A stretch of 64,000 bases of DNA, from contig OX344751.2 of assembly GCA_947034885.2 (NCBI GenBank), positions 20,894,001-20,958,000 on the forward strand, given 5' to 3'. Below the pieces are notes generated by a model. The model made no database searches, was not told where the DNA came from, and saw only the letters and a program-made list of their open reading frames with translations. The translations under genes and the position numbers were made by a program. The number at the start of each line of letters is the position of its first letter. Position 1 is the first letter of the stretch. Shown here one piece after another: positions 10,342-53,084 of the stretch. The stretch is from Thuidium tamariscinum (Eukaryota > Streptophyta > Bryopsida > Hypnales > Thuidiaceae).

Positions 10342-10352
10342 CTCTGCGAAAT

Positions 10353-10376
10353 ACCCTAAACCCTCAACTAGGGTTT
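10353..10376. promoter_or_regulatory. telo-box pair in the RPC4 5' leader
   Basis: Two telo-boxes lie back to back: CCCTAAACCCT and, inverted, CTAGGGTTT, just upstream of the RPC4 start. In plants the AAACCCTA element marks promoters and leaders of ribosomal and translation-related genes and is bound by Myb-like and Pur-alpha factors. Further TAACCCTA/TAGGGTTT motifs occur at about 10573, 10690, 10710 and 11527, around this head-to-head gene pair. Confidence 0.6.
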
Positions 10377-26900: not shown

Positions 26901-27184
26901 TGGTGGTATTGACCCTACGAGAAACGGAGTACTAGTATTACCCAACCACTCAATCTTGTTTTTCTTAGAGCACCTAGATATGTAATCGTAAGATGTGTTG
27001 GTACATATAAGGTGACCAACGCATGAAGACTTCCTAAATTTTAGTCCAAGGTTGTTGTGAATGTTTGAGGTCATCGTGCGACACCACGTATGACCATCGT
27101 ATCGTTTGTCCATGCCAGTCATACTCTTAGAAGAGCTGGACGAAGGTAATGAACAGCAAGGTGGCAATTCTAGGACAATATCAC
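23959..27184 (-). pseudogene. outer MULE transposase, 3' part (exons after the long intron)
   Basis: This is the catalytic and C-terminal portion of a Mutator-like transposase, continuing from 53085-53814. In order it has a zinc-finger region beginning MTGMDKRYDGH with several Cys, the core with FDHVKRVKGWTT, VYDSIYCKVMTIAVCDMQSE and FMADSAQANWNAV (candidate catalytic Asp positions), RTCLFHWTTSL, PSCNLSETIHNKWLQ, and a SWIM finger (CTC...NCKHLYYIF) near 24060-24170. It is 60-70% similar by eye to the inner copy. It is dead: a deletion with frameshift near 26790 removes the His pair of the zinc finger, another frameshift lies near 26550, and stops occur at 26213-26215, about 25857 and about 25848, the last two replacing Trp. 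The acceptor at 27185-27186 follows a pyrimidine tract. Confidence 0.85.
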
Positions 27185-28040
27185 CTGTTGAAGAAGGATA
27201 ATGACCTATTTAGAAATTATCCTATTAGTATAATAAGTTCGTTCCAAGGGAGATGGTCAAGTAGGAAATCTATGCTAATAGATTAATCCAATTTGAAACT
27301 CTATCACCAAAAACATTATTACAACGACAAACTAAATCCAATGAGGTTTACAAATTCTGTACTCAATTGTAATCACTCAACACTCTGCACTTCACCAATT
27401 TGGTACTCTCAGCTACCATAACCAACTAGCATCCCAACATATTGAATCATCCCGAATTGTATACTTCACATCACATCAGATCATCTTCCAATTTGGCATC
27501 CATGCCATAGCATACTCACATACATGTACAACATCCAAATTGATTCCCATTCACAGCATTCAGCTTTATAACCCAATTGGAAAATTAATCCAATAACATT
27601 CACACACAAGAACTCAAATCACTTCTCTTTAGCTTCAAATCAGCTCCATACAGCCTGATATTAATTCTGATTTGGTGACAAATCACCATTAACATTGTAA
27701 TTGTTTTCCATAAGTTCTTCTAAAATCTCCGAATAGGACCCTATCTGCAATTTAACAAATTGCTCTCTGTCCTCTCAGCTATTTCCTCCTACTTGGAATC
27801 ATGTTACAAATTTAACTTCCTCAATTATCACTGATTCCATAATTGTTTCCATCACAGCTAATAAACCCGAATTGTGGACTCAAATTTCTACAATGCACTC
27901 CTGTCCCCCAATTCCTATACTTCCTAATTGGTAATAATTATTCTGATTATTCCAAAATAGAAATCACTTCCACCACCTGTTCCAGTTCCCCGACTTGGAC
28001 ATAGACTCATACATAATTTCCAAACACTCAGCACACACAT
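27185..28040 (-). other. 3' remnant of the long transposase intron, CCAATTGG-rich
   Basis: This non-coding sequence lies between the splice acceptor of the outer transposase and the inverted repeat of element T. Variants of CCAATTGG and CCAATTTG (also CCCGAATTG, CCCGACTTGGA) recur every 30-60 bases. The same motif style, in the same orientation, fills 52512-53084, so the two stretches look like one former intron of about 1.4 kb split by T. Confidence 0.5.
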
Positions 28041-28899: not shown

Positions 28900-31120
28900 T
28901 CTTCTAATATAGTGTTGTGGAAGTGTTCAGCAGGACATATGGAGAGCTGAGGAAGCAAGAGAAGCTTGTCGGGAGGAGCGGAGCACGTCCACAAAATTCC
29001 ATGGACGCTTACAAAGTAGCATCCTGCTTTACTTCCTCGTCAAGAAAGAAGATCATGAAATTGGTATGCAATTCGAAACTTGCAGTGATGACACTGCTAT
29101 GAGAGTGTAATTCCATGGAGCATTGCAGTGTTTAGGTCAGAACAATGTACTTGTTTACATTTTGTGCGTTCCATTGCAAATCTCCAAATTCCAGCAGTCG
29201 AGGACTTGCATTATCCATCTTCTCAGCTAAACTCTTCATTAGGTGGAATTGGGGTACTGACTTAAAATGCCTACAATGGAGATGTTCATGAACTGAGGTT
29301 CGTATGCACTGATTTCTGACAACACTGAAAGTCATGTGTAAGCTACACATGGTTCGTGAGTGACTGCACCCATGCAATCGATAGAGCACGGTGATATTCA
29401 CTTCGAGGCTTCATTCCACGATCAAGGTTGTGCTCATTACAGGTCAGTAGAAAGGGATTCTAGTTGAGAGAGGAGGGAATTCATATTTTCCGAACCACAC
29501 TTCCGATAAAGGAGAAGTACAAATCAATAATAGTCATATGCTATTGTGAATCCATCAGCGGGTTTAAGGTTTAAAATTTTGCTGCAGTCAACAATAATCA
29601 CAGAACGAGGAATTTCATCATTCAAGCCTACACTACGCTTCATGACTCCAACAAGCAAATAATTATTAATTTACAATTGATACAAGATCTCGTCACTGCA
29701 ATTTAGGATTATGGAATCAATGCCTAGTAACAATCAGTATTGATTCTAAAGCATGCGAAGTATAGGATATCAGAAGTAAGAACTACGTACGAAGATCAAT
29801 TCCGAGAAAGCTTTGTCACTAAAGAACTTAACAATGGTGCCACTTGAATGGCCTGATGTCCAATTCTCTACGGTCAACCATATAGTAGCAATTTCCTTGA
29901 CTGGCCAACCTTCTCATCAGAAATGAGTTCAACTGTGGTCGGCATATGCTAGAATGATAGCGACATTCGAAGCTGAATTAGCCAGAAGACGAAAGAAACA
30001 CAGTCACAGTGAACCTAATCTTAAAAATTCTCTTTCGCATGATCTTCTCACATTTCTCACTCTTCAAAGTATGCCACGTATATGGAATGCAGATTGGAGT
30101 GCTAAGATCTTTCGACAAGTCTGCTTGTGCCATTCTTGGTCTGGCTCACTTTGCATTTCTTGGTATTCGTGCTTGTTCGTTCGACTGCGTCGACTGAGCT
30201 TCGCGTACTGACCTGCACTTCTCTTCTACCTATTATAAATGCTATGAAGTTGATTTGCCTCCATCGAGGAGGCTGAAATCCAAGAGCTGTCACTACATAT
30301 TGGACTCTAGAATGAGACCACTGCAGAAGCTAACTTGCTTTCATGTCAGTGACACCTTCTGCCGAGCCTCTGCTCCTTCGTCATTGCGCAAGTGACAGAT
30401 ATGAGGCCAAGAAGCTCTATCGATTCCATTCTCACTTTCAATGTTAAAGATGAACACGGTGATTGGATATCGACAAGAGTTTGCATTGGTAGTTGGATTA
30501 CTCTGCAACCTGGAAGAGTAGGTGCTCATGCTCGTGATGCTGCGGAGCATGGTGGCTCCTCAAATTTTGAGGGCGCTTACAAAGCAAAGGTGTTGAAATT
30601 TCGAGTCCATGAAGGTTCCAGTACAGTCTCCGAGGTTCTAGTCGCCCATGCATACATGCACCGACAATTGGGTATCGACGTCGAATCTGTTGTTGACAAG
30701 TGCAATTGTAAGGAACTATCCATAATTTTCATGATCTTCTCTTACTTGGATTCTTTGTCTATGCTAGGAGGTTTGAACTGCTTGTACTAGGCTTCGAATG
30801 TAGTAAGATTTGCACTGTCGATGTAGTTCTTTCTTGTTCTCTATACTTCGATCGTACTTTGCACTTGTGCAGAAGGTAACACACTCATGTTCCTTCGTTC
30901 CTGTCCACATACTTGTATCCATCAAAATGGGAGGATTGGATTGACGTGCGCTCCATAATAGGCGTCATATGGGTCGTCCATGCTGATATTGGCGAGGCAC
31001 AACGAGGGCATCGTACGCACGAGGACCTATTGCACAATGGCATTTTCTTCTATAATGCCATGTTCTTACTTCCTACTTCAGCGTCACGACGTGGTTCAGT
31101 GGAACCAATCCCTGAGGAAT
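28900..31120 (+). other. element T plus-strand gene T1, 5' segments (tentative)
   Basis: Protein-like segments lie on the plus strand: 28917-29099, 29954-30210, and most convincingly 30392-30711, which begins RPRSSIDSILTFNVKDEHG and contains FEGAYKAKVLKFRVHEG before a GTAAGG donor. The last could be a small beta-rich domain. I cannot assign a function or join the exons with confidence. The inner MULE begins at 31129 and T1-like coding resumes at 46584, so the gene may have been cut by that insertion. Confidence 0.3.
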
Positions 31121-31128
31121 GCTGGTAT

Positions 31129-31187
31129 GTGAGCAGGGAGCGGCGAGCGGGGAGCAGGGAGCAGGAAAAAGTGAGCATGGAGCAGGG
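31129..31187 (+). repeat. left terminal inverted repeat of the inner MULE
   Basis: The repeat is made of successive GTGAGC, GGGAGC, GGCGAGC and GGGGAGC units, with a final GTGAGCATGGAGCAGGG after a short A-run. The reverse complement of 46441-46496 has the same unit order with a few substitutions. Confidence 0.8.
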
Positions 31188-31679
31188 ATTTTAGGAAAAA
31201 AGACCTACCTAATCCTATTACCGTGGAAAAGGGTACCTAAAACCGTGTAATTAGTTTGTTCCAAAAATATTAAATTTGAATTTTTTTCAATCCAATTCTA
31301 ATCTAAAACCATGGAATTTTGGAAGCTTAGATCTATAGCTATATGATATAAGCATTATGATCATGTAATTTCAAACATTTAAAGTTCTCTACAAGAGCAA
31401 AGAATAGAGATAAGAGAACCAAAAATGATTTATTAAAGTTTAATTTATGAAATTTAAGAGACCCTATTATCGTATAATTTTCATAAAAATTTAATTTGTA
31501 TTAAAAGGGGCATGTAAAGCCGTGGATTGTTAAGGAAATTTGGATACCTAATAAAATGATGGTTTCTAGTTTTAATAAAAATAGAAAGAAATCTATGACC
31601 ATGGATTTTTGTCATTTAAGACATTAGATGTTTTTGGGGGCATTTAGAAGGCTAACATTGTTGAGAGATTATCATGCTA

Positions 31680-31850
31680 GATTTTACTATATTTTTAATT
31701 AATTATTAATTTTAAAAAATCAGTTTTTTGCTTCATAACTTTTTGATTTTTTTTTTTTTTTTTTTTTTTCCTTCAAAAAATTCAAACCAGCAGTCGCTGG
31801 TTCATTGCACAGTGAACAGTTTTAGGGAAGAACCCTGAAATAGTCTCCTA
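31680..31850 (+). repeat. second copy of the AT tract plus CCAGC/GCTGG hairpin
   Basis: An AT tract (TTAATTAATTATTAATTTTAAAA), a run of 22 T, and then ACCAGCAGTCGCTGGT, a 6-bp stem with a 4-base loop. The order matches 5500-5690. It lies between the left terminal repeat of the inner MULE and the end of the methyltransferase gene. Confidence 0.5.
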
Positions 31851-33149
31851 CGGAGCAAAAAAACATCTAATACTTATAATGGAAAGACCAAGTAGCTTAA
31901 AGAAATTGAATGAAAAACTATAATACTACAATACCACTCAAAAAAAGACATATATAGTTATGGCATAATATTGCAACCATTAAAGTTATAAACAATTGTG
32001 AATCATTTAGAAACAAATCTTTTGTTGTTTAAATTCACACAATGAGAAATTGAATACTCACCAAGATAAGAAGATACAATAAGTTTAAATATGTGGGTCA
32101 CTTGGATATAGCATTCAACATTTAGAACACACAATCAAATGCCTGTATAATATATATATGATAAAGCAAATGCCATAAAACTGAAGGGCAATTTAGAGCC
32201 ACAATAGTGAAATACACTGAAAAATGAAAACCACTCAAAGACCACCACTAGATCTACAGTCACTAGAGGTTGAACCTTCAATCTCAAATTTCTCTCTTTG
32301 ATCTGCCTCTATATCCAAGAACTCCTTTACCTTTGGATCATATCGAAGCTTTTGTCGATTCACTATTGGAGATGGAGCATCAACATATGCTTGAGCAATC
32401 CTCTCTGCATAAACCGGGAGAATGAAATTGAAAGGCGGACTCTGCTCATTTGCATCTTGTACTTGCTCTACTACGGTGTCTCTGCAAGACAAGAAAAAAA
32501 GGTTAGTAAAATACAATGTAATTCAAATATTCTTATAAAATGAAAAATGGTGACTTAACAAATAAATCACAACTTACGCACAAGAGATGAATCGATTCCT
32601 CTTTGGCTTCTTTGTAGGTGGTTGATCAAGCGGTGGGGTAGTGGCTCTATCCTTGGTTGTAAAAATAGAGGCTGCAACAGGGGCAAACGGGGCAATCATA
32701 GCCTTGAAAATGAGAGGATCATCTTCTAATGCTAAGATGTGCCGTCCAGTCTCCAAACTAGCCTTGATGGATGAACCTGTTGGAAAACAAAAAATATATG
32801 AATAAATTATGAAAAATCAGCTCCAAAGAATGATGAATAGAACTTAAAATTGTAGAAGAAAAAAAATACCTGTTGCAGCTTTGCAATCAAGGACAATATC
32901 TCCAGGCTTGCAAAATTGTAGGATGAGATCTCGTATAAAGGGTAAGTTCTTACGTGGACCTCTCCATGGAATTTTCTCATTCATAGAAAGGCTTTCAATA
33001 TTCGTAAGATTGAAGAGAGCATCATTTTTCTCTAAAGGCTCACCATCATAAGAAGAATTATGGTTTTCTTGGAATGAAAACCGTGAAGGAATCTCCCGCC
33101 GAATAAACAATTGAATCCAAAATCGAACAGACTGTAAACATTGAAAAGT

Positions 33150-33840
33150 TGAATATTAGAAAGAACTGTATCTCAGAAATTACAATATCAAGAGAGCTAC
33201 AGAAATTTCAGAAATCACAATGTCAAGGGAACTACAAAAATTTCAGAAATCACAATGTCAAATAAATCACTAAAACGAAGGACTTCAAAGTTTATTTTAG
33301 GATATACTTTCTACAACTTCCTACAAACTACTCACAAACTAAAATTTACAATGTCAAAGAAAATTTTAGAAATTACAATGTTAAGAAAATTACAAAAATT
33401 TCAGAAATCACAATGTCAAATAAATCACCAAAACGAAGGACTTCAAAGTTTATTTTAGGATATACTTTCTACAACTTCCTACAAACTACTCACAAACTAA
33501 AACTTACAATGTCAAAAGAAAATTTCAGAAATTACAATGTCAAGGAAATCGCAGATATTACAATGTTAAGGAAATTACAAAAATTTCAGAAGTCACAATG
33601 TCAAAGAAATCACAAAAATGAAGGACTTCAAAGTTAAGGGTAGAGTAGACTTTCTATAAATTCCTACAAACTAAAATGTACAATGTCAAAGGAAATTTTA
33701 GAAATCACAATGTCAAAGAAATAATAGAAATTACAATGTCAAGGGAATTACAAAAATTTCAGAAATCACATAAATTTCAATGTCAAGGGAATTACAGAAA
33801 ATTTCAGAAATCACAATGTCAAAGAAGTCACATAAACTTT
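33150..33840. repeat. intronic tandem repeat, AATTACAATGTCAARG units
   Basis: Units of the form ATTACARAAATTTCAGAAATCACAATGTCAA(A/G)G repeat through the intron between the motif IV and motif I exons. Inside is a higher-order tandem duplication of about 158 bp (about 33220-33380 and 33378-33535) containing ACGAAGGACTTCAAAG. The same unit fills another intron of the same gene at 36040-37085. Confidence 0.85.
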
Positions 33841-36039
33841 TTCATTTACCGTTAATGATGGATCCCGTGCAGATGTAAGATGTAGCTCATTGATTCCCCA
33901 CCAATCTTTGGCCAACTTCATGTCATACTGGTCGGCCAACTCATCAACTTCTTTTAGCAATCTTCGGTCATCACAATGTATGAGTAGGAGGGCACTATCA
34001 TCATGCAAATACATATCAGCCATCTCAAAGAGAGTCTCAACGTAATTCTCTTTGCGCGCGTTCCACTCTGGAATTGAAGTTGAAAGACCTGGAACAGGTA
34101 GATTCTCTGGAATGTTTGCAATGATCAAATCAAGTCCTGTATGCTTGTATTCTTTGCAAAAGTCGGATGTAACAGTACGATTGCGAGTAGCACTAATCTG
34201 CACATTTCATACATGTAAAGTTAAAATTAAAACCTTCAAAGCAATGCCATAAAAGATGAAATGTTGGAATTAAGTTGAGAATACAATACCTTAGCTATAG
34301 TGTCATGCAACCTTATCCATCGAGGATCAGGGTTAGTGGACTCTTGTAAACTATTCAAGAGAGTGATGAGAGAAGTGCACTCTACAAAGACATGAAGAGA
34401 GTCTTTAGGCTCTATCATTGAAGAGCTGGCTGAAGGGAATATGAATCGTTTCTTCTTTCGAATTCGATTACCAGTGGCATGAATAACATTCGATAAAGAA
34501 GAATCTGGAGCAGCAGGTGCAAGGCCATCATCATGGCCTTGGTCTGACATGGGGGTAGTCTCATGACTCTGTGAAGGCGCGGCTACAAGCTCATTTGCTT
34601 GAGACTTCTGTCTTTCGGCTTCTTCTTTCTCTGCCTTCTCTTTCTCCGCCTTCTCTTTGGCCACCCTCTCCATCTCTTCCTTCTCCTTCTTTGTGAGCCG
34701 CTTTTTCTTTGGTGCCTTCTCTTGTGGTTGATTGACTTCTTCTGCATCGTCAGGGTCAAGAATAGCAAGTTGTCCACCATCAAAAGCTGTCCTCTCTGCA
34801 ACCTCTGAGTCAGGGGTGTAATTCCGATGACAATCAAGGTACTACCCTCCCGCTTCCAAATGTGTAGCTTTGAACTTCTTCAATTGCTCACATGTAAATA
34901 TACAAAGATTAGAGTCTTTTTGCAACCAAGAAAGGAAAAAGGGTGGTACAGCTTCTGCTGAAATTGCATTTTTGGGAAGTAGAACCCGCATGAAGTACCT
35001 GAAGTCAAGGAGACAAATGTCATGATTGGCAAGTAATTCATGAATGAAAACAATAAAAACAAACAAAGCATTTTCATCAACTTTTAGAAGTAAAGGTAAC
35101 AAATAGGAACCAAAAATAAGAAACAATAGAAACTACATAATAAAATATTAAAGCAAGTAGATAAGTGCAATAGCATGATAGTACCTGTATACAATACGTC
35201 TCACTGCACTCTCAGCTCCAGGGAACTTTTTAAATATAGACTTCTTTGTATAGAGTTTCTGATCTTTGTTTCCAAAGAACGAGATAAATGCTTTGTCCCA
35301 AAGCAAAATGCGCTAACTTTCCATATAATCAGAGGGCTTTCGAACACCTTGTATGGTCCAATCTACGACAATGTTTTCATCTTTGCAAATGTTTGTAACC
35401 ATCTTAACAACTGCCTCCTCCATCTATTAAAATGAAATGAAGAATGTTAAAAATATAATAAAATGAAATCATAATAAGTGCAAGAAAGAAATGATTTGCG
35501 GTCACAATACAATACCTCAGCCCAAAAAGATGCTTTATTAATCCAAGAATCCCAAAAGAGGTCTTTATCCTTGGACCCTGGAAAGCGATAAGATTGTCGA
35601 ACCGTCAAGGATGCATTCCACCACCTTAACCACCGTGCCTTGTGTTTTGCTTCAATGTTAGCGGTGGTAATTTTTTGAAGCTTTTCAATCGTCATTTCAG
35701 GATTTGGATATTCACTGAAGTGTCTATCAATCTGAGCACATAAAAACATTTATATTAGATTGAAATGATGCAATATATAGATAAATTCAGAGATTACAAG
35801 TTTAAATGGAATACAAATGAACTCATACCTCTTTGAGAAAATCATTTCCGTTCTTTGGATTTGCCACCGCTAGGTATTTGTCAAAGTCTTTGGCATGAAC
35901 AGCCTTGACAAACTTGTCTGAGGCATTTTTCATTGCTTCCCAAATGCCTGGAGCAGTCCTCTCTTGGAGTGGTGTCCGCATCGTGTACTCTCGAGCTGCT
36001 TCATCGGCGGCCAATGCAATCTCCCGCTACAATTGAAAA

Positions 36040-37085
36040 TTACAAAAATTACTATGTCAAAGGAAATTTCAGGAATTACAATGTGAAAGAAATCATAGAA
36101 TTGACAATGTTCATAGAATAACAAAAATTTCAGAAATTACAATGTCAAAGACACTACAGAAATTACAATGTCATAAGAATTACAAAAGATTTCAGAAATC
36201 ACAATGTCAAGGAAATCATATAAATAGAGGACTTCAAAATTTATTATAGAATAGACTTTCTATAAACTAAAACTTACAATGCCAAAGGAACTACAAAAAT
36301 TTCAAAAATCACATTGTCTAGAGAACTACAAAAATTTCAGAAATCACACTATCAAGGGAACTACAACAATTTCAGAAATCACATTGTCAAGAAAACTACA
36401 AAAATCTTAGGAATCACATTGTCAAGAGAACTACAAAAATTTCAAAAATCACACTATCAAAGGAACTACAGAAATTTCAGAAATCACACTGTCAAGGGAC
36501 CTACAAAAATCTTAGGAATCACATTGTCAAGGGAACTACAAAAATTTCAAAAATCACACTATCAATGGAACTACAAAAATTTCAGAAACCACACTATCAA
36601 GGGAACTACAAAAATTTTAGAAATCACACTATCAAGGGAACTACAAAAATTTCAGAAATCACACTATCAAGGGAACTACAAAAATTTCAGAAATCACATT
36701 GTCAAGAGAACTACAAAAATTTCAGAAACCACACTATCAAAGGAACTACAGAAATTTCAGAAATCACACTGTCAAGGGACCTACAAAAATCTTAGGAATC
36801 ACATTGTCAAGGGAACTACAAAAATTTCAAAAATCATACTATCAAGGGAACTACAAAAATTTCAGAAACCACACTATCAAGGGAATTACAAAAATTTCAG
36901 AAATCACACTATCAAAGGAATTACAGAAATTTCAGAAATCACACTATCAAAGGAACTACAGAAATTTCAGAAACCACAAACTAAAACTTATAATGTCAAA
37001 AGAAATTTCAGAAATTACAATGTCAAAAAAATCACAGAAATTACAATGCTAAAAGATTGTCAAAGATATTACAATATCAAAAGAA
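36040..37085. repeat. intronic tandem repeat, about 35-bp GGGAACTACAAAAATTTCAG unit
   Basis: Close to thirty units of a roughly 35-base repeat fill the intron between two methyltransferase exons (37153 and 36026). Because 35-36 is near a multiple of three, open frames of over 260 codons arise on the plus strand; they are products of the repeat and not genes. Units in the middle (36300-36970) are most alike; outer units resemble the array at 33.2-33.8 kb. Confidence 0.9.
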
Positions 37086-38569
37086 TGTCAAAGAAATTAC
37101 AGAAATGACATATAAATGTTGCAAGAAAAACAAATTGGAAATGTGATTGCACCTTATACAAAAAGGAGATGAAGACATTGACTGTCAAAGAAAACCAACT
37201 CGGTCTCATTGCCTTCACCTTCTCATAGTATTGGTACTCTTCAGGAGATATAAAGTCCTTGAAATCAGCAAGAGGTAAAACTCCAAAATTTCGAATTCGC
37301 CGCAATCGAGCTAGAATTGTACTCTTCACATGATCATGCTCAGTAGACCTACACATTATACAATGCATTTGCATGAGAATGAAATCAAATTTCATGGCAA
37401 TGAATTCATATTTAGATTCTTCACAAATAAATTTAAATAGAATAAGAAACGTACCAGTTAATATCACTCATTGCATTTAGCAAGTTTGCCACTTGACCTC
37501 TTGGATCCAATATAATGCAATGAACTCGCCAATGCTAATCAAGTTCTGTAGGATGATAGTTGGTGATGTGTCGCATCCATGCCGAGACACGATGATTTCC
37601 ATCCCACACATAAAACATCTTGCCTCTCAATTGGGCAAGGTCATCATCAACCATCAACTCTTTCTCAAACTCCTCATTCACATGTTGCCAATGAGGACTC
37701 CACCTTGCAATTTCTTCTTCAGTCACGTCCATAGTTTTTTCGAAATTGTTATATGGTGATATATATAGAACCCGATCACCATCTCGATAGCCAGTCATAA
37801 ACTCACTCTCCAATCTCTGAACATCCATTTCACCAACCGGTCGAACCTCGTCCATAACAATCATTCGACACAGAGGTATCTCAAGGCGTGATCTAGAAAC
37901 TGGTTGGATACGCAATGTGTTGATGAGTCCTGTAGTGTCCACTTTAAGCTGTTTGCGGTGGAGTTGCCCACTCTCCAATACACTTGTTACATCAGTTGGA
38001 CATTCACATCTTGGTTCATCATCTTCAAGATCAATAGATGCAACCTTCAAAAAAATGATAGATAAAATGGCATTAGAGAAGAGAGTGATTTACATTTAAA
38101 ACTTGTTGTTTTGAATAATTGTACATACACAAAGTAATGGAAAGGACATGAAGTTGAGAACATGTAGAAATTTCATTTACCTCAACAATTGGAGGTGCAA
38201 CTCTTCCCGTTTCTCCTGTAACAACTCTCTCACCATCATTGTTGTTCTCACCTTCTTCCTCCTCGACATATGTGATTTCAGTTTCTTCTTCTTCATTCAT
38301 CTGATTAGTTGAAATCATTGAAGAAAACTTGACATAAGTCCTCCATTATTTATAAATGAAGATGAAAGGAAAATGAACTCATTCTTGATTCTTATTTACA
38401 GCATCGTAGTATACAAATAAGACAACACAAATACAACAACATTGACAACTGAATTCATAAATAATCTCAAAGCAACTCATTCTATTAGAAAACTAGAGAA
38501 GCTACAAAGAAATCATGAAATGGCATCTTTTCTCAAAATTCAGCCTAAAGTAGTACAAGTTATGGACAG

Positions 38570-38896
38570 CCTCGTCAACGAGGACTATATGAGTTGAGTA
38601 TAGTTCAAACTAAAACATTGGCATTGATCCAAAGAATGTGCAAATATTGTCCTTCAAAATTTTTTTGTTAAGAACAGCCCAACAATCTTAGCATTTTTCA
38701 ATTAGATTCGAAGTTGTTTTGAGTGTCCTCGTCAACGAGGACTCTTCGAAATAGTCGTGTGTAATTCAACCTAACGATCTAAACAAAGAATGTATAATTT
38801 TAGGTTTTTTTGTCAATGAAGATTTCCCGAAAGGGCTGTAAACAAACCAATGTTGATTAGGGTAGCCGCTGTTTTGGGTATCCTCGTCAACGAGGA
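38570..38896. repeat. two 155-bp tandem units bounded by the palindrome TCCTCGTCAACGAGGA
   Basis: The palindrome (7-bp arms, 2-base centre) occurs at 38569-38584 (first base G in place of T, arms still pairing for 6 bp), 38726-38741 and 38881-38896, 155-157 bases apart. A degenerate copy with GTCAATGAAGA lies at about 38808-38822. A related perfect palindrome, CTCGTTAACGAG, is at 39117-39128. The sequence between them is also repeated (CAAAGAATGT, TTTTTTTGT). They lie in the intron between the second and third exons of the ParB-methyltransferase gene, near its 5' end. Confidence 0.8.
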
Positions 38897-39199
38897 CTCC
38901 TCAAAACTGCACGTCCCGCAATTGCTGCCCCCCCCCCGAAAATGCAAAAAACTTCGAACTAGAAATGACAGAGAAAAAATTAGAGGAGAAAACAAACCTC
39001 AATGTCTGGCTAAGTGTCTTCTTGCGGTCCACGCGAAGCCACCGCCGACCGCTCTGCAAATTCTCCCTCTTCCATCTGCAGCAACAATCGCCACAAATCG
39101 TACGCAAAGAAGATGCCTCGTTAACGAGCGATCTTCCTCTGTGCCAAACCCTCAGCAACTTCGACGCACAATTGGACTGGTTTGCAATGCTGGCCTCGG

Positions 39200-39240
39200 G
39201 GAGGAGGGAAGGGAAAAAAAAAAAAAAAAAAAAAAAAAGA
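39200..39240 (+). repeat. poly(A) run
   Basis: A run of 24 A after GGGAAGGG lies in the intron between the first two exons of the methyltransferase gene. It is noted only because it may mark slippage or an assembly weak point. Confidence 0.7.
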
Positions 39241-40174
39241 GTACAAAATTGGTAGATTTAGGTCAGCGCTTTATTTTGAATAGCAAATGTAATTTTGAGT
39301 AATTTGGTTTGAAATTTTTTTCATACATAGATTATAACCTTACAGTTAACTCCAAATTTTTTTAGAATTTTTAGACTCACTACTGATTTTACAAAAATTG
39401 TCTAAGTTCACAAAAAAGTCCGCGAGCAAGATTTGCCTAAAAATCTTCCGATTCTGAAGATTTCAGACCAGGTTCCAATCTGCTAAAATCGTTTTTAGGC
39501 CATAAAACATTCAATAACCATCCAATTTTTATGTGCCATATACCGTTGGAATCGTCTTCTTAAAATACACGAGAAGGTCTTCTCTGTCAAATGCAGCTCT
39601 ACCAAAAAAAAATTCATACTAATTCAACAAACAAACTAATCATTTTGGTATCTATTCTTCTATACTTTCAAGCATCTTCTGGCTTTGTTATGTAATGAAC
39701 TAGTAAATAAGTACTTAACAAGTGTTCTTCTAAACAAATTCTCACTACATCTTATTTAAAACATCAACTTCAAATGATCAAATAATATGATATACTTACC
39801 AAATCTTGTCTACTTTGGGCAGGTTCTTCACTATCTTCGTCACTCTCGTCCTCGCTCTCGTCCTTACTCTGATCGTCTTCTTCGCCATGTATGTTGTCCT
39901 CATTTCTTTCAACCATAGATACTGGTTCTTCAATAATCTTATCATGACATGAAATACCGTCACCAACTATGTCGGCCACTTCTTGGTCACCAAAATCAAG
40001 TGCTTTAGACGTCTCACCATAGCTATGCTTTCCTCTACTTAAAATTTTGGCCCCTCTCATCTTAGCTCTTGATCTGGCCTTCGGAGTTGTGTAATATAGT
40101 TTGTGTCTTTTTCTCTTCTTTTTTATCAACTTACTTGCAACCTGAGACTTAAGGATCTTGATTTCTTCAAGCAT

Positions 40175-41394
40175 CTGATCTACCACACATACATTCCGAA
40201 ACAAGCATCACAATAATACCGTCTCTATCACCTCCAAATTATCTATCATTCAACCCTACTAGCTGTAGACATAGTTCTAACAAACATTGAGTCTAATTTA
40301 AATAATGTTTTTAGCTATTCAAAGCCTTCAAAAATTGACAAAGGTGCATTATTCTCATCTCTCACAAATCTACAATCTTCTTTCACAACAAGAGTAAAAA
40401 TCACCTACTAGATGCATAGCTACTGTAACACAAACTCAAAACGCTTTCAAGATCAAAGAAGTATTACAATGATGTCCTACAACTTTAATAAAGATGGTAA
40501 GCAAGATGTACTAACAAGAAAAACTTAAACTCTCTGGCAACGGTAAATGACAATTGTACAAGTTTGAAGTTTATTCAAATTTTGAAATCTGACGGATCTG
40601 TTATTCTAAATGTTATTTCTTGTATAAATACTCTATCAATCTTCTACTATAACGTAAACCTGCAGGTGGATTTGGCGCTCCCACTACTTAAATGTTTGTA
40701 TTTCCTTTGATTCTTTGTTCCTACTTCATACAAATGACGGCTACTTCTAATGTGGGCCACTTCTAATGTAGGCCACTTCAAACTAAAATCTTCACATATA
40801 CTATATTTCATTTATTTTTTAATTCATAATTCATATTTATTATGAAATTAATTAATGTTAGACATGTTTATTTTCAAAATCGGATCATCACTAATCAAAT
40901 TATGTTGACCACTTCAAACCAACATCTTAACATATACTATATTTCATTTATTTTTTAATTCATAATTCATAATCATTATTAAATTAATTAACATGAGACA
41001 TGTTTATTTTCATAATTAGATTTTTATTAATCTAATTAATTTATTCAAATTTATACTATTATTAATAAATTTGGTACTATGCTTTATTGTCTACTATGTC
41101 AGTATGTCAGTATGTCACCATTAGGTGTTTTTAGTTTGCTTCTCTTTTCTAATGAGGTTCTTTTAAGGGATCAAGATTAATGTCACTTCTTGAACTCTTG
41201 TCAGAATTCATCATTGAGAAATTTTCAAACGATTTCCTAACTATTGCTAAAGCCGTTGTAAACTACTTCATCATCATATTTGCTAACTACATATTTGTTT
41301 CCAGCACAATCTCTTTCTTTTCAATTCATTTCTTCTGAGTGCAGTATGGACGTAAATTAGAATGGTATCTTCATGAGACTTCAATCTTTAAGCA
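40175..41394. promoter_or_regulatory. divergent promoter region of the inner MULE with a 125-bp tandem duplication
   Basis: This 1.2-kb AT-rich stretch separates the 5' ends of the two divergent genes, so both promoters should lie here. A unit of about 125 bp is repeated in tandem (about 40780-40905 and 40906-41040); each copy carries ACATATACTATATTTCATTT and AGACATGTTTATTTTCA. Individual TATA boxes cannot be told from the AT background. Confidence 0.55.
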
Positions 41395-44300
41395 ATGGTA
41401 GACTTTACAGAGATGGCTATTGTAAGGGCGAATGGTGAAGGGATTCCAATAACGTTTCTAGTAGGCAAAGATGGATTTGCTGTGGTTTCTGCGTTTCGAT
41501 TAAGTCTTAGGTTTCAGTTGAACGAGGATTCACTTTATATTGATGAAGAGGTGTTCGATGATCATAGTGGAGACCTTACTCACACAATTGGTCAAGTCCC
41601 TGTTTCAGATGGTGCTGGTAGATTGTGGCATTTGAAGCCTGGTCAATTTAGGGTGTATGGATTGCGTGAATCCATTATGGTAACTTCTACGAGTGTTTTT
41701 ACACCTCGTCAGTCCTCTACGTCCTCTCGTGAAACACCTTTAACAACACGAGTTAAATTAGAGCCTGATTTGAATGATGTCACCATTCTAAGTGATGATT
41801 CTGATGACAATTCTCCCAAGCAACTGCAAAGCTCTAAGATTCGATGTCATGAGTCAACTTTACCAAGTTCTAGTACATTGCCAAGTTCTAGTACATTGCC
41901 AAGCTCTAGTATTTTGCCCAATTCTAGTACTTTGCCCAGCTCCAGTACTTTGCCCAGCTCCAGTACTTTACCCAGCTCCAGTACTTTATCCAGCTCCAGT
42001 ACTTTATCCAGCTCCAGTACTTTATCCAGCTCCAGTACTTTACCTAGCTCCAGTACTTTACCTAGCTCCAGTACTTTACTCAGCTCAAGTACTTTGCCCA
42101 GCTCTAGTGCTTTGCCGAGTTCTTATGAGCCATTATTTGCCAATCCTTCTAGTAGCAACGAATTTATTACATCTGTCATTGATTGTTTAAGAGAATTGCG
42201 TACACTGAAGGGATGTAGAAATGTCTTGAAAAAAATTGATTATGACACTATTACTATTCATAGAGTGAGCATATTACCTCCAACTTTCAATGGAGATGTC
42301 ATTTTTGAGTTTCCACCACTTACTACCTCTACTGCTCTATCTCAAGCTAAGCAAATGAGTGGGATGGATAAGCGGTATGATGGGCATGTCTGGTCTAAAA
42401 CTATTACAACAAATATAACAAATACTATGGGATTATCATTCTGTACATTTTCATGTGTAGGACATCTTCAGTGCATCAATCCGGGCTGTGAGTTTCTTAG
42501 TCGTATTCATCAAACCAAGCCTGTCAATGAACTAGAATGGGAAGGGTTCACACCATCACTATTTGAAGTAGGAAGTGCACATCCTCAAGGATCAACACTT
42601 GTTTGTAAAATATGCAAGCAACCTCCATTCTGTATTGCTCGATGTTCTGCAAGGGTATATTATGTGTTTGGAAAACAGAACTTCTCTCGTGCATTTGTAC
42701 ATCTTGGCATTCATCAACATCCTGTCAAAGATGGTGAACTCAGAGACATCAAGGAGCGAACCCGTATTCTTATTGGTGAACAAATGGAGAGAACACCAGT
42801 TGCGACAAACTCTTCAATTGTGTTGGAGGCTACAAAAGAACTTGTGGGAGAATTTTTGCTACGTCCAGATGGAGTTCCAGTGAAGACCCTCAACATTGAT
42901 GAACTTCTTCCAGTTCTTGACAAGTGCAAATATTTCAGCTCTCCAAATATTCGAAATGAGGTAACTTCATTCAAATACTTAAGGAGGTTTGGAGTTATGG
43001 ATAGCATTACAAAATTGAGGGGTATAAGCTCTTGGGCATTTGTTCAAGAGAATAAATTTCTAGGTCAAGGATCGAATATGGATAAAGTTTTTGTCTTCAA
43101 AATGTCGGAAGTTGGACCCGGTAGTGGAGTAGACTTGGTCAAGCAAATGCAACCCGACGGTGACCTTCAGGATGCTTGGTTAATGTTTGATCATGTTAAA
43201 CGTGTTAAAGGTTGAACTACCATGGCATGGCATGTCTACGACTCCATGTATTGTCGTGTTATGACTATTGCCATCTGTGATATGCAATCTGAAGACTGTG
43301 CTGCTCAAATTGTATTTTGGAAAAACTTGAATTCGGTTCTTGCAAGACATGGTGTATCTCACCTTAAATTCAAGGGATTTATGGTTGATAGTGCCCAAGC
43401 AAATTGAAATGCTGTGAGGACAATCTATGGATCAGGTGACATTCATGTTCCAATGGAAAACCAAGAAAGGACTTGTCTTTTCCATTGGACTCAATCAATG
43501 GAAAAGCATACAAAAGCTGATATTCGATCAAACTTACAAGATCATCATCGTTTGCTATGCAAACAATACAAGAATGCTATTTCCTCTGAAGAATCAGAAA
43601 CTTGATATCTTGCCATCAAAGCTTGGTGGTTATCATCTGGTGCTACGATAGAAGAAGGACTTCATCGATTAGAACTTTGGCTATCGTTCTGGCATTTCCG
43701 TTACCACCAATGGGGAGGATTTGAACAACTTGTAAGTATCTATTCTTCATCTATTCTATTTCAAATATCTATTTGTTTAAATCTATTTATAGCAAAAAAT
43801 TCAAAATTTAATTTTATAACCATTACTAATCATTTGGACAATGTCAATTTGAAAATGTATATATAGTATATATGATTTCACTACAATTCTTATAATTACT
43901 ATAAATAGATCATCTAAGACAGTATGGGTTATTATTTATTGCATTATTAATCAAAAAAATTATATTAAATTAGAGACCAATAATCCTTGTCAACAAAGAT
44001 CATGAGATTTGAATCTTCAATCATTTTATTTTTGTAACACTGAAAGTAGACATAATTTAGCATGTCTTGCCACTTCATCAACGACAATGACACAGCTTAA
44101 CCTCCTTTCCTAGTTTTTTGATAAAAAAATGACATGAACTAAAAAAGAGGTCTGTTTTCTTTGTCCTTAATGATAAAAAGTTTATTGTCTTTTCTTGATT
44201 CATATTATAATTTCCTTCTTACTTTGATTACTAATTATACTATCAATATTAATAGTAATAATGTTATACTTACAATACATTTATATTTTTTTCTAACAAA

Positions 44301-45801
44301 ATTTTCATTTTTGATTTCATTGTCATTTCAGAATCTGAGTGAATCTGAGCTCGCAGAAATGCCTTCTTGCAATTTAGCCGAAACTGTCCATAACAAGTGG
44401 CTTCAACAATCTGGAAATCGAGGAAACAATTTATACATTGCCACTGTTGACGACTATGTAAGAGCCTTTATGCAAATGGTCAAGTATTATCAATATCTTA
44501 AAGGCGATCAAGTTGGAACAGGACCTGGAAAGGAAGAATTGTTACTCCGAGTTGCTCAACGATCAGCGCAACGATCGGGGAATCCAAAGGTGCTCACTGA
44601 AGCTATGTCCAACATTCCAGAAGTGAAAGAATTTCTCAATAGGGAGCCTCGTCTTGAAGGTGAAGAAGTGTTTGGATCACAAAAACGCAAGCCAGATATG
44701 CCATTGGGCTGTGAATATGATTCACACCGCCCGGACAAAGTGAATTTTTCTCATCCACGCATTCAAATGAGGTCGAAGAGAGCCTCCACAGGCACTCAAA
44801 ATTTGAATCCTATTATTGAAGATGTTATTCCAACTGCAGATACTGAGATGGAGGATCCGATGACAACTGAGGGCAATTTAAGAGAAGGTTTTATTTACAG
44901 AGTTCCTCATGTGTCAGCAATTCAAAAGAGCAATTGTGATGAGTTTCAGTGGCACATTGCAAGGCTTCATAAATCCTCAGCAAAGGCTTGCTTTGCCCTC
45001 CAAGCTATTTCAAAGAAGAAGTGTACAGCAAGGATTGTTCAAAGCAATATTGCTACAGCAACACCAACGTATACATGAATGATGACCAATTATAAGAAAA
45101 ATCGAAATGAGCAAATGCAATTTTTCTTTTGCAATGACGACATTGAACGTTGTGTGAAGGGTACAAGTCGGAAGTGGGTGTTGTCAAGACCTAATGTCCC
45201 TGCCATATGGCCTGTCAAAATGGGTACCAATATGTCAAAGCAAGAGATTTTGGCATTTGAAACTGCTGGCTTTCAGCTTCCACAACGTCAAGTTATTTCA
45301 CCCCGAAGACTGTTTGGTGGAAAAGCAGGTTTAGATTTGGTCTCTGCTTATCCTGTTCCATGTATACCAAATGAGCATCCAAAAATTCGGTCAGGGAAAA
45401 CCATTCGTCGGAATCCAAAGGCACCAACAGTAAAACACGCGAACAATTGTGCATCTGCAATTACACTGAAAGCATGCATTCGTCGGGTAACAATGGTTCC
45501 TCACCTTGGATTTGGTTGCATTGTTTGCCTTGACTCTGGATTGGAGCCAAAAATTGAACAATATATGCTTACTATTTCATCATTTCCAGAGTGTTCATGT
45601 CCGTACTTCAAAGAAATGGCTACAAAGTCATTAGGCAAGCGAGGACAATGGGCAAATTGTAAGCATCTCTATTTTGTTTTTACAATCTTTTGCAACCTTG
45701 AGTCAGCAATAGATGCCTTCATTCATGCCCCAAGTTTCAGTTTCAATGAAGTCAAGAAGATCCTTCTTAGTGGGATATTAAATCATTTAGCTCTAAGTTA
45801 G
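41395..45801 (+). pseudogene. inner MULE transposase, two exons, four in-frame TGA
   Basis: The exons are 41395-43731 and 44332-45801 (donor CTT|GTAAGT, acceptor TTTCAG), 1,268 codons with no frameshift. The outer copy starts at the equivalent of the ATG at 41413 (MAIVRANG), so that may be the true start. Order of domains: a variable N terminus with a Ser-rich TLPSSS repeat, the block LRTLKGCRNVL, a WRKY/GCM/FLYWCH-like zinc finger (Cys pairs from CVGHLQC to CKICKQPPFC and the His pair IHQHP), the MULE core with FDHVKRVKG, AICDMQSED and FMVDSAQAN (candidate catalytic Asp), the second-exon block PSCNLAETVHNKWLQ, and a SWIM finger CSCPYFK...NCKHLYFVF near the end. TGA stops are at 43213, 43405, 43603 and 45076; the first two replace Trp seen in the outer copy. 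Confidence 0.88.
41860..42125 (+). repeat. coding minisatellite, 18-bp unit (TLPSSS)
   Basis: About fourteen copies of an 18-base unit such as AGCTCCAGTACTTTACCC encode TLPSSS and close variants within the transposase N-terminal linker. The outer copy has a Ser-rich linker here without the repeat, so the array is specific to this copy and likely recent. Confidence 0.9.
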
Positions 45802-46440
45802 ATTTTTTATTGCAAAACAGTATCAACTTTTGTACCTTCTGTACTCATCAATGTATATGTAGTGAGACTAAAAAGGCCACTACTTCCATTTCACTTTCAG
45901 CATTGAGATTACTGTATAATTTTTGTTGTTTTCCTTATACCTATATTTTGCATTATGGTTTATTATATTCCATCATTGATATCATATATTTGTACCTTCA
46001 TTCTCTTCTAACCATTGTGTTTTGATTTTAATTTTTTAGTTTATAATTCAAATTCTCTCATTTCTTTTTGAAACAAAATACACAATCATCAATTCTAAAA
46101 ATGTCCACGGTAATGGGTCTATTTGAGATTTATTATATGACACAAAAGCAATTCAATTCAACTCTCAACTTCTTTGGTTTTAAGACAATTTACTTCCACG
46201 GTCATAGGCACTGTAGTAGTGAAGTTACAATTTTGAATGGTATATATTTTGATTTTTACCTTTTTCATCTGTTATTTTCGTCCATTGTCTTCTATTTTTG
46301 CATCCAACTTCATCCATTTTTTCCATCTACTTTCATCTATTTTTCATCTACTTTCATCTACTTTCATCTACTTTCATCCATTTTTTCCATCCACTTTCAT
46401 CCATTTTCATGCAACTTTATTTTTTTTCATCCCAAATCAA
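45802..46440. other. 3' flank of the inner transposase with CATCTACTTT microsatellite
   Basis: This AT-rich sequence between the transposase stop and the right terminal repeat contains CCACGGTAATGG and CCACGGTCATAGG (inverted subterminal motifs at about 46106 and 46197). A pyrimidine-rich array of TTTTCATCYAYTTTCATC units lies at about 46300-46430. Confidence 0.55.
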
Positions 46441-46496
46441 TGCTCCCCGCTCACAACTTGCTGCTCACCGCTCACCGCTCGCCGCTCACCGCTCAC
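46441..46496 (-). repeat. right terminal inverted repeat of the inner MULE
   Basis: Successive GCTCAC, CGCTCACCG and CGCTCGCCG units form the reverse complement of the left end at 31129-31187. The outermost GTGAGC is at 46491-46496. Confidence 0.8.
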
Positions 46497-46583
46497 GTAC
46501 TAGCGACGTTGACCAATTCTTCTTCCAGGATTTCATGATCCTGAGTGGCCACTTCCAGATATGAGTACTTCTGAGCATTTCAG

Positions 46584-48467: not shown

Positions 48468-51337
48468 CTAGTTCTCTTGTTGGTGCCTATGGTCTCTGGA
48501 TTGAAACTTATGCTGAATTACTCTATACCAGTGTTCGTAGGTTTGCAGCAGAGGACTTGTTTTATGCTTTGATCCTCTATGCTGAGTGTATCTGTGGTAT
48601 GCCACTTTTACAACGTGGTGACTGTTCTCCATCCCTTGGCATGACCACACAGCCAGTGAACCATATTCCTGAACGAAGAACGGCCCATACTTGACGAGGA
48701 CGTGCTGTGCAGGCAAGCAACATGTTAAATGAATTAAGGTATTGTCTTTACAATGAAAACCACTGCTGATTGAAATTTGGAAGGACAAATGTGAATTGAA
48801 GTTTTCGGCACAGGTTTGTTGAGGACTTACAATATAGTGTGTTACGGATTGTTCACCAAAGTATTTGATGAAGAGTCTTCCGAAGTCCTCAATTAAGTCC
48901 TGGAAAGATGCTCTCTGGTCTGCAGTCAATGTCAATTCTGTGAAGTATGGTGCCAATTTCTCTAGTGATTTCCACACTTCGATGCGACCATGGCGAGCAT
49001 GGTCATTATCTAAAAAATTTCTCTCTACACATACTAGATCTTGGTATAGTCTTTGTGAACCAGTTGGTAGAGGGCTTGGTTGGAAAAGCTTGCGCGCATG
49101 TCCACCACTTAGTGAAGGTTTCCTTGCAACACTGTTTCCCTTGCTGGAGATGTCCCTATCCTCTAGAATTTGGACTTCACCACCGTGCATTCCAATGCTT
49201 GATAGGATTCTTTTGATGTCTTCTATAGCTGCCTTCTGTAAAACCTTGTTCCTCATAGTCCACACAAATTGAAAGTGCATATGCAGAAGTTTCTCACAGA
49301 TTCGATTGAAGGCATGCATGGTACAAATATGAACACGATGTAGTGGTATAGGCAATATGGCATGCCATCGGCAGAGGTTGTCACCAATATTTACAGGAAT
49401 GGCATGAATGTCTTCAGCGAATAGTCCGCCACTCCAGGTGGGATGCCGTTTACTAGCAGCATTTCTTGCTTCTTCAGTAGTGAGCACTGAATTTTTATTC
49501 TTAGGTTGGTTGCAATATATGCAGTAGAAAGTAGCATTAGGTCCACTCTGTAGACCATATAGTGCCTTGATAGTTTTCATGTCTGCTGCTAAATGCCATT
49601 GCACATTGAAGTCTCCAACTCCATCAACTTCTAGAAGTTGACCTGATTCTTGAGCTGCAATAGTGTTAGGGATCTTCGTGAGTTTGAACATAGTATCTAG
49701 AGTTTTATAATTCTCTTTTGGCAATTGGAAACAACCAATAGGCCAAATGTCATGTTCAGATTGGACTGAGAAGTACTTCTCTGAATTTGGTGTTATGGAG
49801 TCGTCTAAAGCTCTGTTCATGAATGTTATGCTCATCCTCTCAAACTTCTGCATGTGGATAATTTCAGATTCATCCATCTTGAGGACGAAGATGAGTGGTT
49901 GCCCTTGAAGCTTTGCATGACATGTAGTGCATGAGTTCACTTCAAGGAAGAAATCAATGAAAGAAAGAGTATTTGCAGAGGAAATCATGACAGAATAGCA
50001 TGAACAGTGTGAATGCAGGTTCAGTGGTATTACCTTGAGGAGTAACTCTATAGAATTTCACCATTGTCCGCTGCACGGCTTCTATATCGCAGAAGAAGGT
50101 ATTGCATTCATTTAATATGATAGGTTTCATGACTTTAGTTTTCTTGTTGTAAGGAATCTGAAATGAACTGTGTACACTATAGTAGTCACCAATGAGGTTT
50201 GTTAGTTCTTTATTCATATCTTGCCACAACTGTCTTACGGAATGAGGCTTTGGGAGGCATCCCACCTTTAGTCCTGTCGCAGTAGACCTTGTTCCTGCTT
50301 TGAACTTCTTAAATATTGCTTCGAAGCCCTTGCGGGTAATCCCTATGTCATCGCAGGTTTGTAGAATTGCATGTGCATCTACAATGTCTCCAATCTTCTG
50401 TAAGTGCTGATTTATTAATTTTGTCGTAGCAGAGGTCCACTGTGGTAAACCAGACATTGTATCTATTTCAGTTTTGGATAACATGGACGCTATAACTTCA
50501 GCTGTTCTCAATTGGTCTCTTGAGTCACCAAACAAGCGTTTCCTCTTCGAAGTAGAGGCATTATGGTCTTGGACTTTCTTTGTCGTGCTTGGAGCGATGA
50601 CTTGTCTGGCCAGTCTACGGATTGCCCGAGTATGACCGCCTTGTTGAGAAAGACTATGAATATCACGTCGAGGCCGCACTTGGCATCGATAACCGAATGG
50701 TGTTTTCTTCAGTCTGTCGACTTTAGATTGTAGTCTCTCATAATTTCTGATAGCATCATCAATACTCTGTTGAAGTAGTAGCAATTGACTTTCATGTTGG
50801 CAGTTGAGGGATTGAAGCTTCAGCGAATGTTGCTTCTGGAGGTAGTTGAATTGGCTTCGCAGATCCTCAAGACTCACTTGTGCCTCTCTAGCTATTTGCA
50901 GTTGCTGCTTCTTGAGGTAGTTCAGTTGGCTTCGCAAATCTTGAAGACTCAGTTGTGCGTCTCTAGCTATTTGTAATTGTTGCTCGTACTTTTCAGTGAC
51001 ACTTTGCAATGTACTTTTAATTTGAGCAGAACTACTTACAAGCTAGTCTACACGCTCTCTGAGAAAGGATATAGTACCGTTCTGTTGATGCACCTGTTCA
51101 AAACTACTAGAACACGACCTCTCCACATTTCTGACATAACCGAGCAAACCCTTCTGACCATCACCAATGAATGTCAGAATTTCTAGTACCGAAGAGAATT
51201 GAGGGCGTATGTTAGTTACCGGGTCTGCAGGGTATATAGATCCATCGACCCACAAATCCACATGCGTTTCTTGAAGTTCTCTTCTACTGTGGAACTCAGA
51301 TTTCAGAGGTTGTTCATGCAAAGGTCGTCCCCTCAAA
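48468..51337 (-). CDS. element T gene T2: coiled-coil plus putative transposase
   Basis: Two exons fit, 50034 to about 51337 and 48468-49939 (donor CAAG|GTAATA, acceptor TTCCTTGAAG), in phase; the start is uncertain. The N-terminal part has a tandem pair of about 25-residue heptad repeats (QIARDAQLSLQDLRSQLNYL and a near copy), so a coiled coil, then a basic segment. The second exon has KMDESEIIHMQKF (possible first catalytic Asp), WHLAADMKTIKALYGLQSGP with a CIYC cysteine pair after it, and a His-rich end. This resembles, from memory, a family of large transposase-like proteins with a D-x-K-x(n)-CxxC core found in several eukaryotes; I cannot name it. A TAG at 51043-51045 interrupts the first exon unless a GTAAGT just after it is used as a donor. 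Confidence 0.5.
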
Positions 51338-52511: not shown

Positions 52512-53084
52512 CCACAAAAGCAACCACACACATTAGCACACAATTTCCTACTTGGAAACACAAGCACAAAAACTCAAATACGCAGCACGATAAGCTGGGA
52601 CTTGCAGCAGACACATTCAATACTAGGTGACAACAAAATTGAAAATCACAAACAAATAGGAATTCCCAAAAACAGTTACCAAAACTGCCCCGACTTGGAG
52701 CCTAACCACTCAACACTAACCGAATTGGAAACACAACCTAACTACCAACCAAATAAACCCAGTTGGAACTGACAAGTGGCCCTGCCTCCGACTACTCTGA
52801 ATTGACAAACCAAAATCCAACTTGGACACAAAAGAAACTCACCAACTAGGTTCTAACTTGACCCACAATAACCTCAAATTAACCCACTCGGCAGACTCCA
52901 TCACATCCAAATTGAATTCACACAACAAAATTGGTTCAAAATCTGCACTCCCAATTGGTAAAAAACATACAAATTCATCCAATTAGTGCATAAACCCCCT
53001 AAAAAGCCTTCAAAAACACAAAATTAACCCCAAAAATCCGCACGAAAAACTAAAGTAAAAATCCTGTTAGGTTATCTACATCAC
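52512..53084 (-). other. 5' remnant of the long transposase intron, CCAATTGG-rich
   Basis: This is non-coding. Motifs such as CCCAATTGG, CCGAATTGG, CCCGACTTGGAG and CCAACTTGG recur at short intervals, as in 27185-28040. The putative donor is G|GTGATG, reading the minus strand, at 53084. Confidence 0.5.

Follow-up and report, generated by a model that had tools for sequence, protein, structure and literature searches.

The moss Thuidium tamariscinum carries, within a 64,000-nucleotide stretch of contig OX344751.2 (assembly GCA_947034885.2, positions 20,894,001 to 20,958,000; the window), a two-gene DNA transposon nested inside a related outer element. Both elements contain a transposase gene and, divergent from it, a partner gene that joins a ParB-like part to a methyltransferase (MTase)-like part. 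An earlier note on this DNA had recognized the same divergent gene pair in two copies; that description is borne out, and extends far beyond two copies. The inner element lies within slightly wider limits than first stated (31114 to 46510/46511), with its partner gene on the minus strand (about 38.3 to 32.2 kb) and its transposase on the plus strand (about 41.4 to 45.8 kb). The outer element has the corresponding pair, mirrored and again divergent, and is split by the inner copy. The features of the two elements, in window coordinates and with predicted exon borders, are as follows.

31114-46511, no strand: inner element, about 15.4 kb, with ends and a target-site duplication (TSD); similarity to ten other copies breaks off at these ends or close to them
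31114-31185, plus: inner left end, with GNGAGC heptamers (end comparison)
32238-32522, minus: frame that is probably the last exon of the inner partner gene, placed by eye
32577-32816, minus: inner MTase-like exon; TGRHILALED at 32721-32750
32847-33155, minus: inner MTase-like exon spanning the position of motif I (DIVLDCKAATG, 32868-32900)
33814-34206, minus: inner MTase-like exon spanning the position of motif IV (DLIIANIPENLPVP, 34090-34131)
34239-36026, minus: linker frames between the inner ParB-like and MTase-like parts, several predicted exons with a K/E-rich stretch (six-frame reading against the outer copy; predicted borders)
36163-37092, no strand: array of 35-bp tandem units inside an intron predicted for the inner partner gene (19 copies of 300 nt, overlapping and spaced 35 bp apart)
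37538-38089, minus: inner ParB/sulfiredoxin-like exon (frame limits; AlphaFold2 and Foldseek)
37577-37606, minus: GNHR box of that exon, WDGNHRVSAW
41392-43863, plus: first large exon region of the inner transposase; FDHVK 43186-43200, MVDSAQAN 43381-43404, CLFHW 43474-43488
44143-45798, plus: second exon region of the inner transposase; NLAETVHNKW 44371-44400, SWIM-type CSC...CKH 45592-45666
46440-46511, minus: inner right end in inverted orientation; the number of its GTGAGC heptamers differs among copies (end comparison)
23116 to about 64674, no strand: outer element, reaching 674 bases beyond the window (position 674 of the fetched locus L076), with ends and a TSD candidate
23959-27209, minus: catalytic and SWIM part of the outer transposase; FDHVK 26351-26365, MADSAQAN 26147-26170, NLSETIHNKW 25264-25293, SWIM-type motif 24091-24165
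53053-53877, minus: N-terminal frames of the outer transposase
55668-56300, no strand: 126-bp tandem array immediately upstream of the outer ParB-like exon
56375-56998, plus: outer ParB/sulfiredoxin-like exon; CDGNHRYGAW 56846-56875
62923-63372, plus: outer MTase-like exon spanning the position of motif IV (DLIIVDVPEGLPVP, 63058-63099)
63415-64000, plus: outer MTase-like exons; DIIMDCIASTG 63667-63699, TGRHIVALEAD 63834-63866, with a further predicted exon beyond the window (L076)

The two genes are linked throughout the genome. Searches of the moss's own assembly (363 Mb, 19 contigs), two for each gene part and each listing about 150 places, gave unions of 233 transposase, 204 ParB-like and 248 MTase motif-IV exon places; all counts here hold among the places listed. 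From the first MTase search the pairing counts use 113 motif-IV places and no rows of the motif-I exon. A ParB-like or MTase exon lay near 186 of the 233 transposase places, in 182 cases divergently, against a mean of 3.9 and a maximum of 9 divergent pairs in 300 shifts. Starting from the ParB-like exons, 133 of 204 had a transposase within 15 kb and 130 of these pairs were divergent (500 circular shifts: mean 5.4 and maximum 16 in any orientation; mean 1.3 and maximum 6 divergently). In the inner family, every one of the 30 ParB-like places had a divergent transposase within 20 kb, and the partner gene was found at 30 of 32 transposase places, always divergently, leaving two unpaired. The outer-like family had a partner within 15 kb at 33 of 40 transposase places and within 40 kb at 39. 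Contig C11 is denser in listed transposase places than the rest of the genome (2.69 against 0.54 per Mb) and could be a sex chromosome or otherwise special.

Elements of the inner family are 15 to 17 kb long. The left end reads GAGGAATGCTGGTATGTGAGC and the right end, reverse-complemented, AACGTCGCTAGTACGTGAGC, with GTGAGC-type heptamers at both; the terminal inverted repeats are short and imperfect, and rich in heptamers of varying number. The ends of the outer element carry motifs related to these heptamers. Ten other inner-family copies (E1 to E10), representing 10 of the 29 other inner-family ParB-like places, were fetched as halves. Each of them, the left side of E10 excepted, loses its similarity to the window copy at or close to the same positions. 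A perfect 10-bp TSD (10/10) flanks eight of the ten; E7 matches at 4/10 and E10 is without a left end. The TSD of the window copy is imperfect (8/10), and the outer candidate matches at 9/10 but lies within locally repetitive sequence. Position 46511 was scored as part of the element because 10 of 11 copies have G there and E5 has A, which makes the TSD 10 bp long; it would otherwise be 11 bp, with fewer perfect copies.

Across five exon regions (10 or 11 copies each), inner-family copies are 96.4-99.6% identical pairwise, and one of the ten fetched copies is open across all five exons that we inspected (ParB-like, two MTase-like, two transposase). Copies also nest in one another: the inner in the outer element and, judged by eye, E10 in another transposase gene. 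The element family is recently mobile. Both window transposases carry nonsense codons: the first exon region of the inner gene has in-frame stops after 43212 and 43404, and the catalytic part of the outer one has a stop at 26216-26218. Given the linkage, the TSDs and the high identity of copies, the partner gene is a standing part of this mobile element, as had been proposed from the window alone; the GTGAGC-rich ends fit the same picture. The earlier note held that its proposal would fall if other copies never had the two genes together or were not enclosed by terminal repeats. We looked at both, and the genes do occur together, between terminal repeats.

The N-terminal domain of the partner protein is predicted to adopt a ParB/sulfiredoxin fold. 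An AlphaFold2 model of the ParB-like exon, built on a 14-row family alignment (open reading frames of L002 to L020 left out, L001 kept), reached a predicted local distance difference test (pLDDT) score of 83.7. In a Foldseek search with this model the first 34 rows were all ParB, Noc, KorB, PadC, Srx or SbnI structures, with probabilities up to 1.00; the best row had E 0.011 and probability 1.00, at a template-modelling (TM) score of about 0.4. A GNHR box is conserved in the alignment. We named the domain for this fold because of the model, the Foldseek rows and the box, which together amount to a match at fold level. The Pfam ParB model PF02195 has no match across the genome, the alignment found no relative among viral contigs and the domain found no match among phage records. 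The sole bacterial-genome match, in Paenibacillus, was rejected by eye as chance, its reading frame sharing little beyond a GYDDGDRVFY stretch.

The C-terminal part resembles permuted adenine methyltransferases. When a profile from four families was run against the PDB, CcrM came first at E 7.1e-7, matching over the whole length (profile positions 5-222) and in the permuted motif order (IV ... X-I), followed by DpnA-type and MboIIA enzymes. Pfam N6_N4_Mtase matched in two families at E 2.8e-5 and 3e-5, both failing the Pfam cut-off, and PHROG methyltransferase matches went down to E 8.3e-6. The canonical motifs are nevertheless replaced. The catalytic pattern [DNS]PP[YFW] occurs in none of 43 MTase fragments, 35 of which span the site, and the S-adenosylmethionine (SAM)-loop pattern DP[FAY]xGxG in none of 45. 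The place of DPPY mostly reads DxPE(G/N)LPVP, a few families having D for E and others Q, H or L for P, so that in aligned rows E, or in some families D, stands for the aromatic residue; a DCTASTG-like stretch fills the SAM-loop place in 34 of the 45 fragments. The D of motif IV is retained in 33 of 35 rows, counted by eye. These fragment sets comprise 14 and 13 inner-family rows, the remainder coming from 25 and 24 other loci (the outer window copy is one), and they were gathered with models from the same lineage, by which a canonical sister lineage could be missed. The MTase alignment found no relative among viral contigs.

The motif pattern suggests that the MTase-like part is a pseudo-enzyme or an unconventional enzyme, and the partner is most probably inactive as an adenine methylase. 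Active adenine methylation, taken as the default reading, is weakened by the absence of the canonical motifs. The possible role raised in the earlier note, marking of the element's own DNA, is likewise unsupported if methylation is meant, because both the catalytic and the SAM-loop motif are missing from every fragment examined.

Both parts of the partner gene are under purifying selection. Among pairs at a synonymous divergence (dS) of 0.1-0.9, the ratio of nonsynonymous to synonymous divergence (dN/dS) ranged over 0.05-0.29 in 31 pairs of the ParB-like exon, 0.07-0.26 in five pairs of the motif-IV exon and 0.05-0.51 in three pairs of the motif-I exon, the pairs not being independent of one another; closer pairs scattered up to 1.03, as expected of decaying copies. 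Among 406 singleton differences in the inner family, 330 were C>T or G>A and 30 were the reverse transitions. Per site, C>T was highest in the CHG context in four of five regions, with six events only in the ParB-like region, and in CG in the fifth. Because decay is mainly C-to-T, the host probably methylates cytosines in these copies.

The history of the pair differs within and between families. By identity, the inner transposase is closest to that of the family fam70 (73%) and the outer to that of famC8 (65%), whereas for the outer ParB-like domain the nearest family is fam70 (56-58%), and the inner domain stands at 45% to famC8 and 43-44% to fam70. Quartet likelihood rejected all transposase topologies but (inner,fam70); for the ParB-like domain it supported (inner,famC8) and rejected the transposase tree (approximately unbiased test 0.005, Kishino-Hasegawa test 0.01). 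These conflicting trees suggest that partners were exchanged among families. The quartets comprise four taxa and one ParB-like domain of 167 columns, with exon pieces joined (X at some joints) and with the transposase and the ParB-like sequence of fam70, and likewise of famC8, drawn from separate copies that we presume to belong to one family, and hidden paralogy could also yield such a conflict. Co-descent judged by identity to the inner query was tried and set aside: the correlation (rho 0.81, 67 pairs) fell to 0.11 (p = 0.53) among the 37 pairs outside the inner family. On these comparisons the shared inheritance claimed in the earlier note appears to hold within families and to fail, as strict co-descent, between them.

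The transposase has a very long first exon with a Ser-rich repeat. The motifs FDHVK, MxDSAQAN, CLxHW and NLxETxHNKW align by eye among the families compared, with a SWIM-type C-x-C...C-x-H downstream; their catalytic roles would follow the order familiar from Mutator-like elements (MULEs). A D-D-(CxxH)-E order was made out by eye in the outer copy and in those alignment rows that reach the sites, the E1 row having Y for H. The SWIM-type motif is C-x-C-x19-C-x-H in both window copies; the Pfam SWIM model gave E 0.56 and failed its cut-off. No Pfam model, SWIM included, matched the joined transposase up to E 10. None of the 40 PF10551 (MULE) places in the genome falls at a listed transposase place. 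In hhalign, five transposases did not match five MULE frames from this genome, which is weak evidence because the alignments are shallow, and an AlphaFold model of 452 transposase residues (one exon, nine rows) had a pLDDT of 43.6. The TSD of 10 bp falls inside the 8-11 bp by which passages of PMC6446971 define MULEs. It is plausible, from the TSD, the ends, the SWIM-type motif and the DDE order, that the element works like a Mutator-type transposon and is Mutator-like, as first described; we do not assign it to the MULEs, because the transposase has no Pfam match and no PF10551 place coincides with a listed transposase.

Several further observations concern the layout of the partner gene and its surroundings. 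Tandem Repeats Finder counted 19.9 units of the 35-bp array in the window copy and 11.1 to 31.9 among the other copies listed. The arrays of 35-bp and of about 158-185-bp units (33137-33836 and 36059-37102, in predicted introns) have a common ACAATGTC core, and 15 of the 21 occurrences of this 8-mer in the window, on either strand, lie between 33000 and 37200. In the family of locus L021 the linker and the motif-IV place fall within one long frame (438 amino acids), so intron numbers seem to vary among families. Within the outer element and outside the gene pair, two long minus-strand frames (529 and 362 amino acids, 48471-51042) may belong to another nested element; the 529-residue frame matched no Pfam family. 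A long minus-strand frame at 9247-10461 resembles what we take to be a host RNA polymerase III subunit.

We tentatively propose that the partner is a helper that acts on the element's own DNA and counters host cytosine methylation or silencing, in the manner of VANC, the accessory protein of Arabidopsis VANDAL transposons, and not as a working methylase. Its footing is the linkage, the mobility, the fold relations, the motif replacement and the selection described above; DNA binding, anti-silencing and a lack of catalysis would follow from them. Under this proposal, a cut-and-paste transposon that makes a 10-bp TSD would encode, as gene 1, a transposase of DDE type that bears a SWIM-type zinc motif and, as the divergent gene 2, a putative ParB/sulfiredoxin fold followed by an MTase fold of the permuted CcrM-like type, with replacements at the DPPY and SAM-loop motifs. 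The partner protein would stay on element DNA, at the terminal GTGAGC heptamers or at the internal tandem arrays, and would counteract host cytosine methylation or silencing there, as VANC does for VANDAL elements.

Several observations weigh against this proposal. Among the places listed, 47 of 233 transposases are without a partner and 71 of 204 ParB-like places are without a transposase within 15 kb. At the level of the ParB-like domain, Foldseek gave no match at E <= 0.001, Pfam gave the exon no ParB match and nothing of any other kind above chance level, the PHROG ParB-like match reached only E 0.0086 and the PDB offered no sensible sequence match. Sulfiredoxin and kinase relatives show that DNA binding is no necessary property of a ParB/Srx fold. 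Seen without a control from unrelated DNA of this genome, the C>T bias speaks for deamination pressure and not for targeted silencing, and conserved non-canonical motifs could equally mean altered catalysis. The function suggested for the partner draws on sequence, fold prediction and analogy.

Nearly as likely, by the same kind of analogy, although itself somewhat doubtful, is that the partner is a transposition cofactor, which would bind the terminal heptamers, or use a ParB-like clamp or dimer to bridge the ends, and so aid the transposase in excision or insertion. The divergent pairing is kept across families that appear to have swapped partners, heptamers stand at both ends of the inner family with related motifs at the outer ends, and some MULE groups have a second open reading frame, according to passages of PMC6446971; against this, there is no sign that the partner, rather than the transposase, binds the heptamers, and two proteins that meet at the ends would make partner exchange harder, though possible. 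We think it unlikely that the partner is an active unconventional methyltransferase, guided by its ParB-like domain to mark the element's own DNA: the CcrM-like permuted order over the whole length, the retained D of motif IV and the purifying selection on both MTase exons would suit such an enzyme, but neither canonical pattern survives in any fragment and the aromatic residue of DPPY has given way to E or D.

The two remaining explanations are contradicted by the data in hand. Uptake of gene fragments by MULEs is documented in parts of PMC6431247 and PMC6446971, so that the partner might be captured cargo without function for the element, as in Pack-MULEs; that is very improbable given the selection and the linkage, with an identical layout in several families only 35-60% alike in their ParB-like domains and dN/dS well under 1. 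A chance neighbourhood of two unrelated repeat families, imaginable because both genes are repetitive and the elements nest, deserves almost no credence, as the shifts never exceeded 6 where we counted 130 divergent pairs, or 9 where we counted 182, and common ends and TSDs enclose both genes. A wider and more speculative reading, which we think improbable but worth stating, is that the elements constitute a separate eukaryotic DNA transposon superfamily, only loosely related to MULEs. Its core machinery would be a transposase together with a ParB-fold/CcrM-fold protein, an ancient bacterial DNA-modification fold with an altered active site would have become an element-tracking or anti-silencing factor, and the two gene modules would have been exchanged between families.

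How selfish DNA evades silencing is shown by transposons that bring chromatin modifiers with them. In this moss the partner gene is numerous, joins two bacterial-type folds, has lost the usual catalytic residues under selection and appears to have moved between transposase lineages, and anti-silencing and transposition-cofactor roles become testable within one system. It also carries a caution: a plant gene annotated as a 'methyltransferase' may have no part in methylation.

The element shares with MULEs its TSD length and inverted ends and, as candidate features, a DDE order with CxxH before E and a SWIM-type motif, but differs in a transposase without a match to the Pfam MULE or any other model, a long Ser-rich first exon, a length of 15-17 kb and a large second gene. 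The MTase-like part resembles CcrM and other permuted beta-class adenine methylases in its whole-length profile match and motif order, and departs from them in its replaced DPPY and DPFxGxG motifs, the ParB-like domain in front and its home in a eukaryotic transposon. The predicted fold and a G-x-H-R box link the N-terminal domain to ParB, Noc and sulfiredoxin; the scores are weak, and where partition ParBs have GERR the transposon domain has GNHR. Other mobile elements likewise carry genes that act on epigenetic marks. DIRS elements have an adenine methylase. Fungal transposons with TET/JBP genes, and Harbinger and MuDR elements with SET genes, are described in parts of PMC12730594, and retrotransposons with DNMT genes in part of PMC5890265. 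In none of these four systems did we see a ParB-like or motif-altered CcrM-like domain, and the top-ranking papers of the open-licence PMC literature (subscription papers and Repbase not included) held no transposon that we recognized as having a ParB-like gene.

The VANDAL elements of Arabidopsis, with VANA, VANB and VANC, offer the closest parallel: they too are plant DNA transposons with several genes, one of them for an accessory protein, and with noncoding tandem arrays. VANC probably belongs to a different protein family from the partner described here, and the fragments that we scanned contain no Pfam VAN-type domain. The VANDAL entry in the portion of Table 1 consulted in PMC6446971 lists neither a ParB-like nor an MTase-like fold, and the TSD of 10 bp is a further difference. 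VANC binds noncoding tandem arrays, and silent marks are lost (parts of PMC10398659). With its variable noncoding tandem arrays, its signs of methylation-driven decay and an accessory protein that is under selection but probably no methylase, the Thuidium element finds its nearest functional model in VANDAL.

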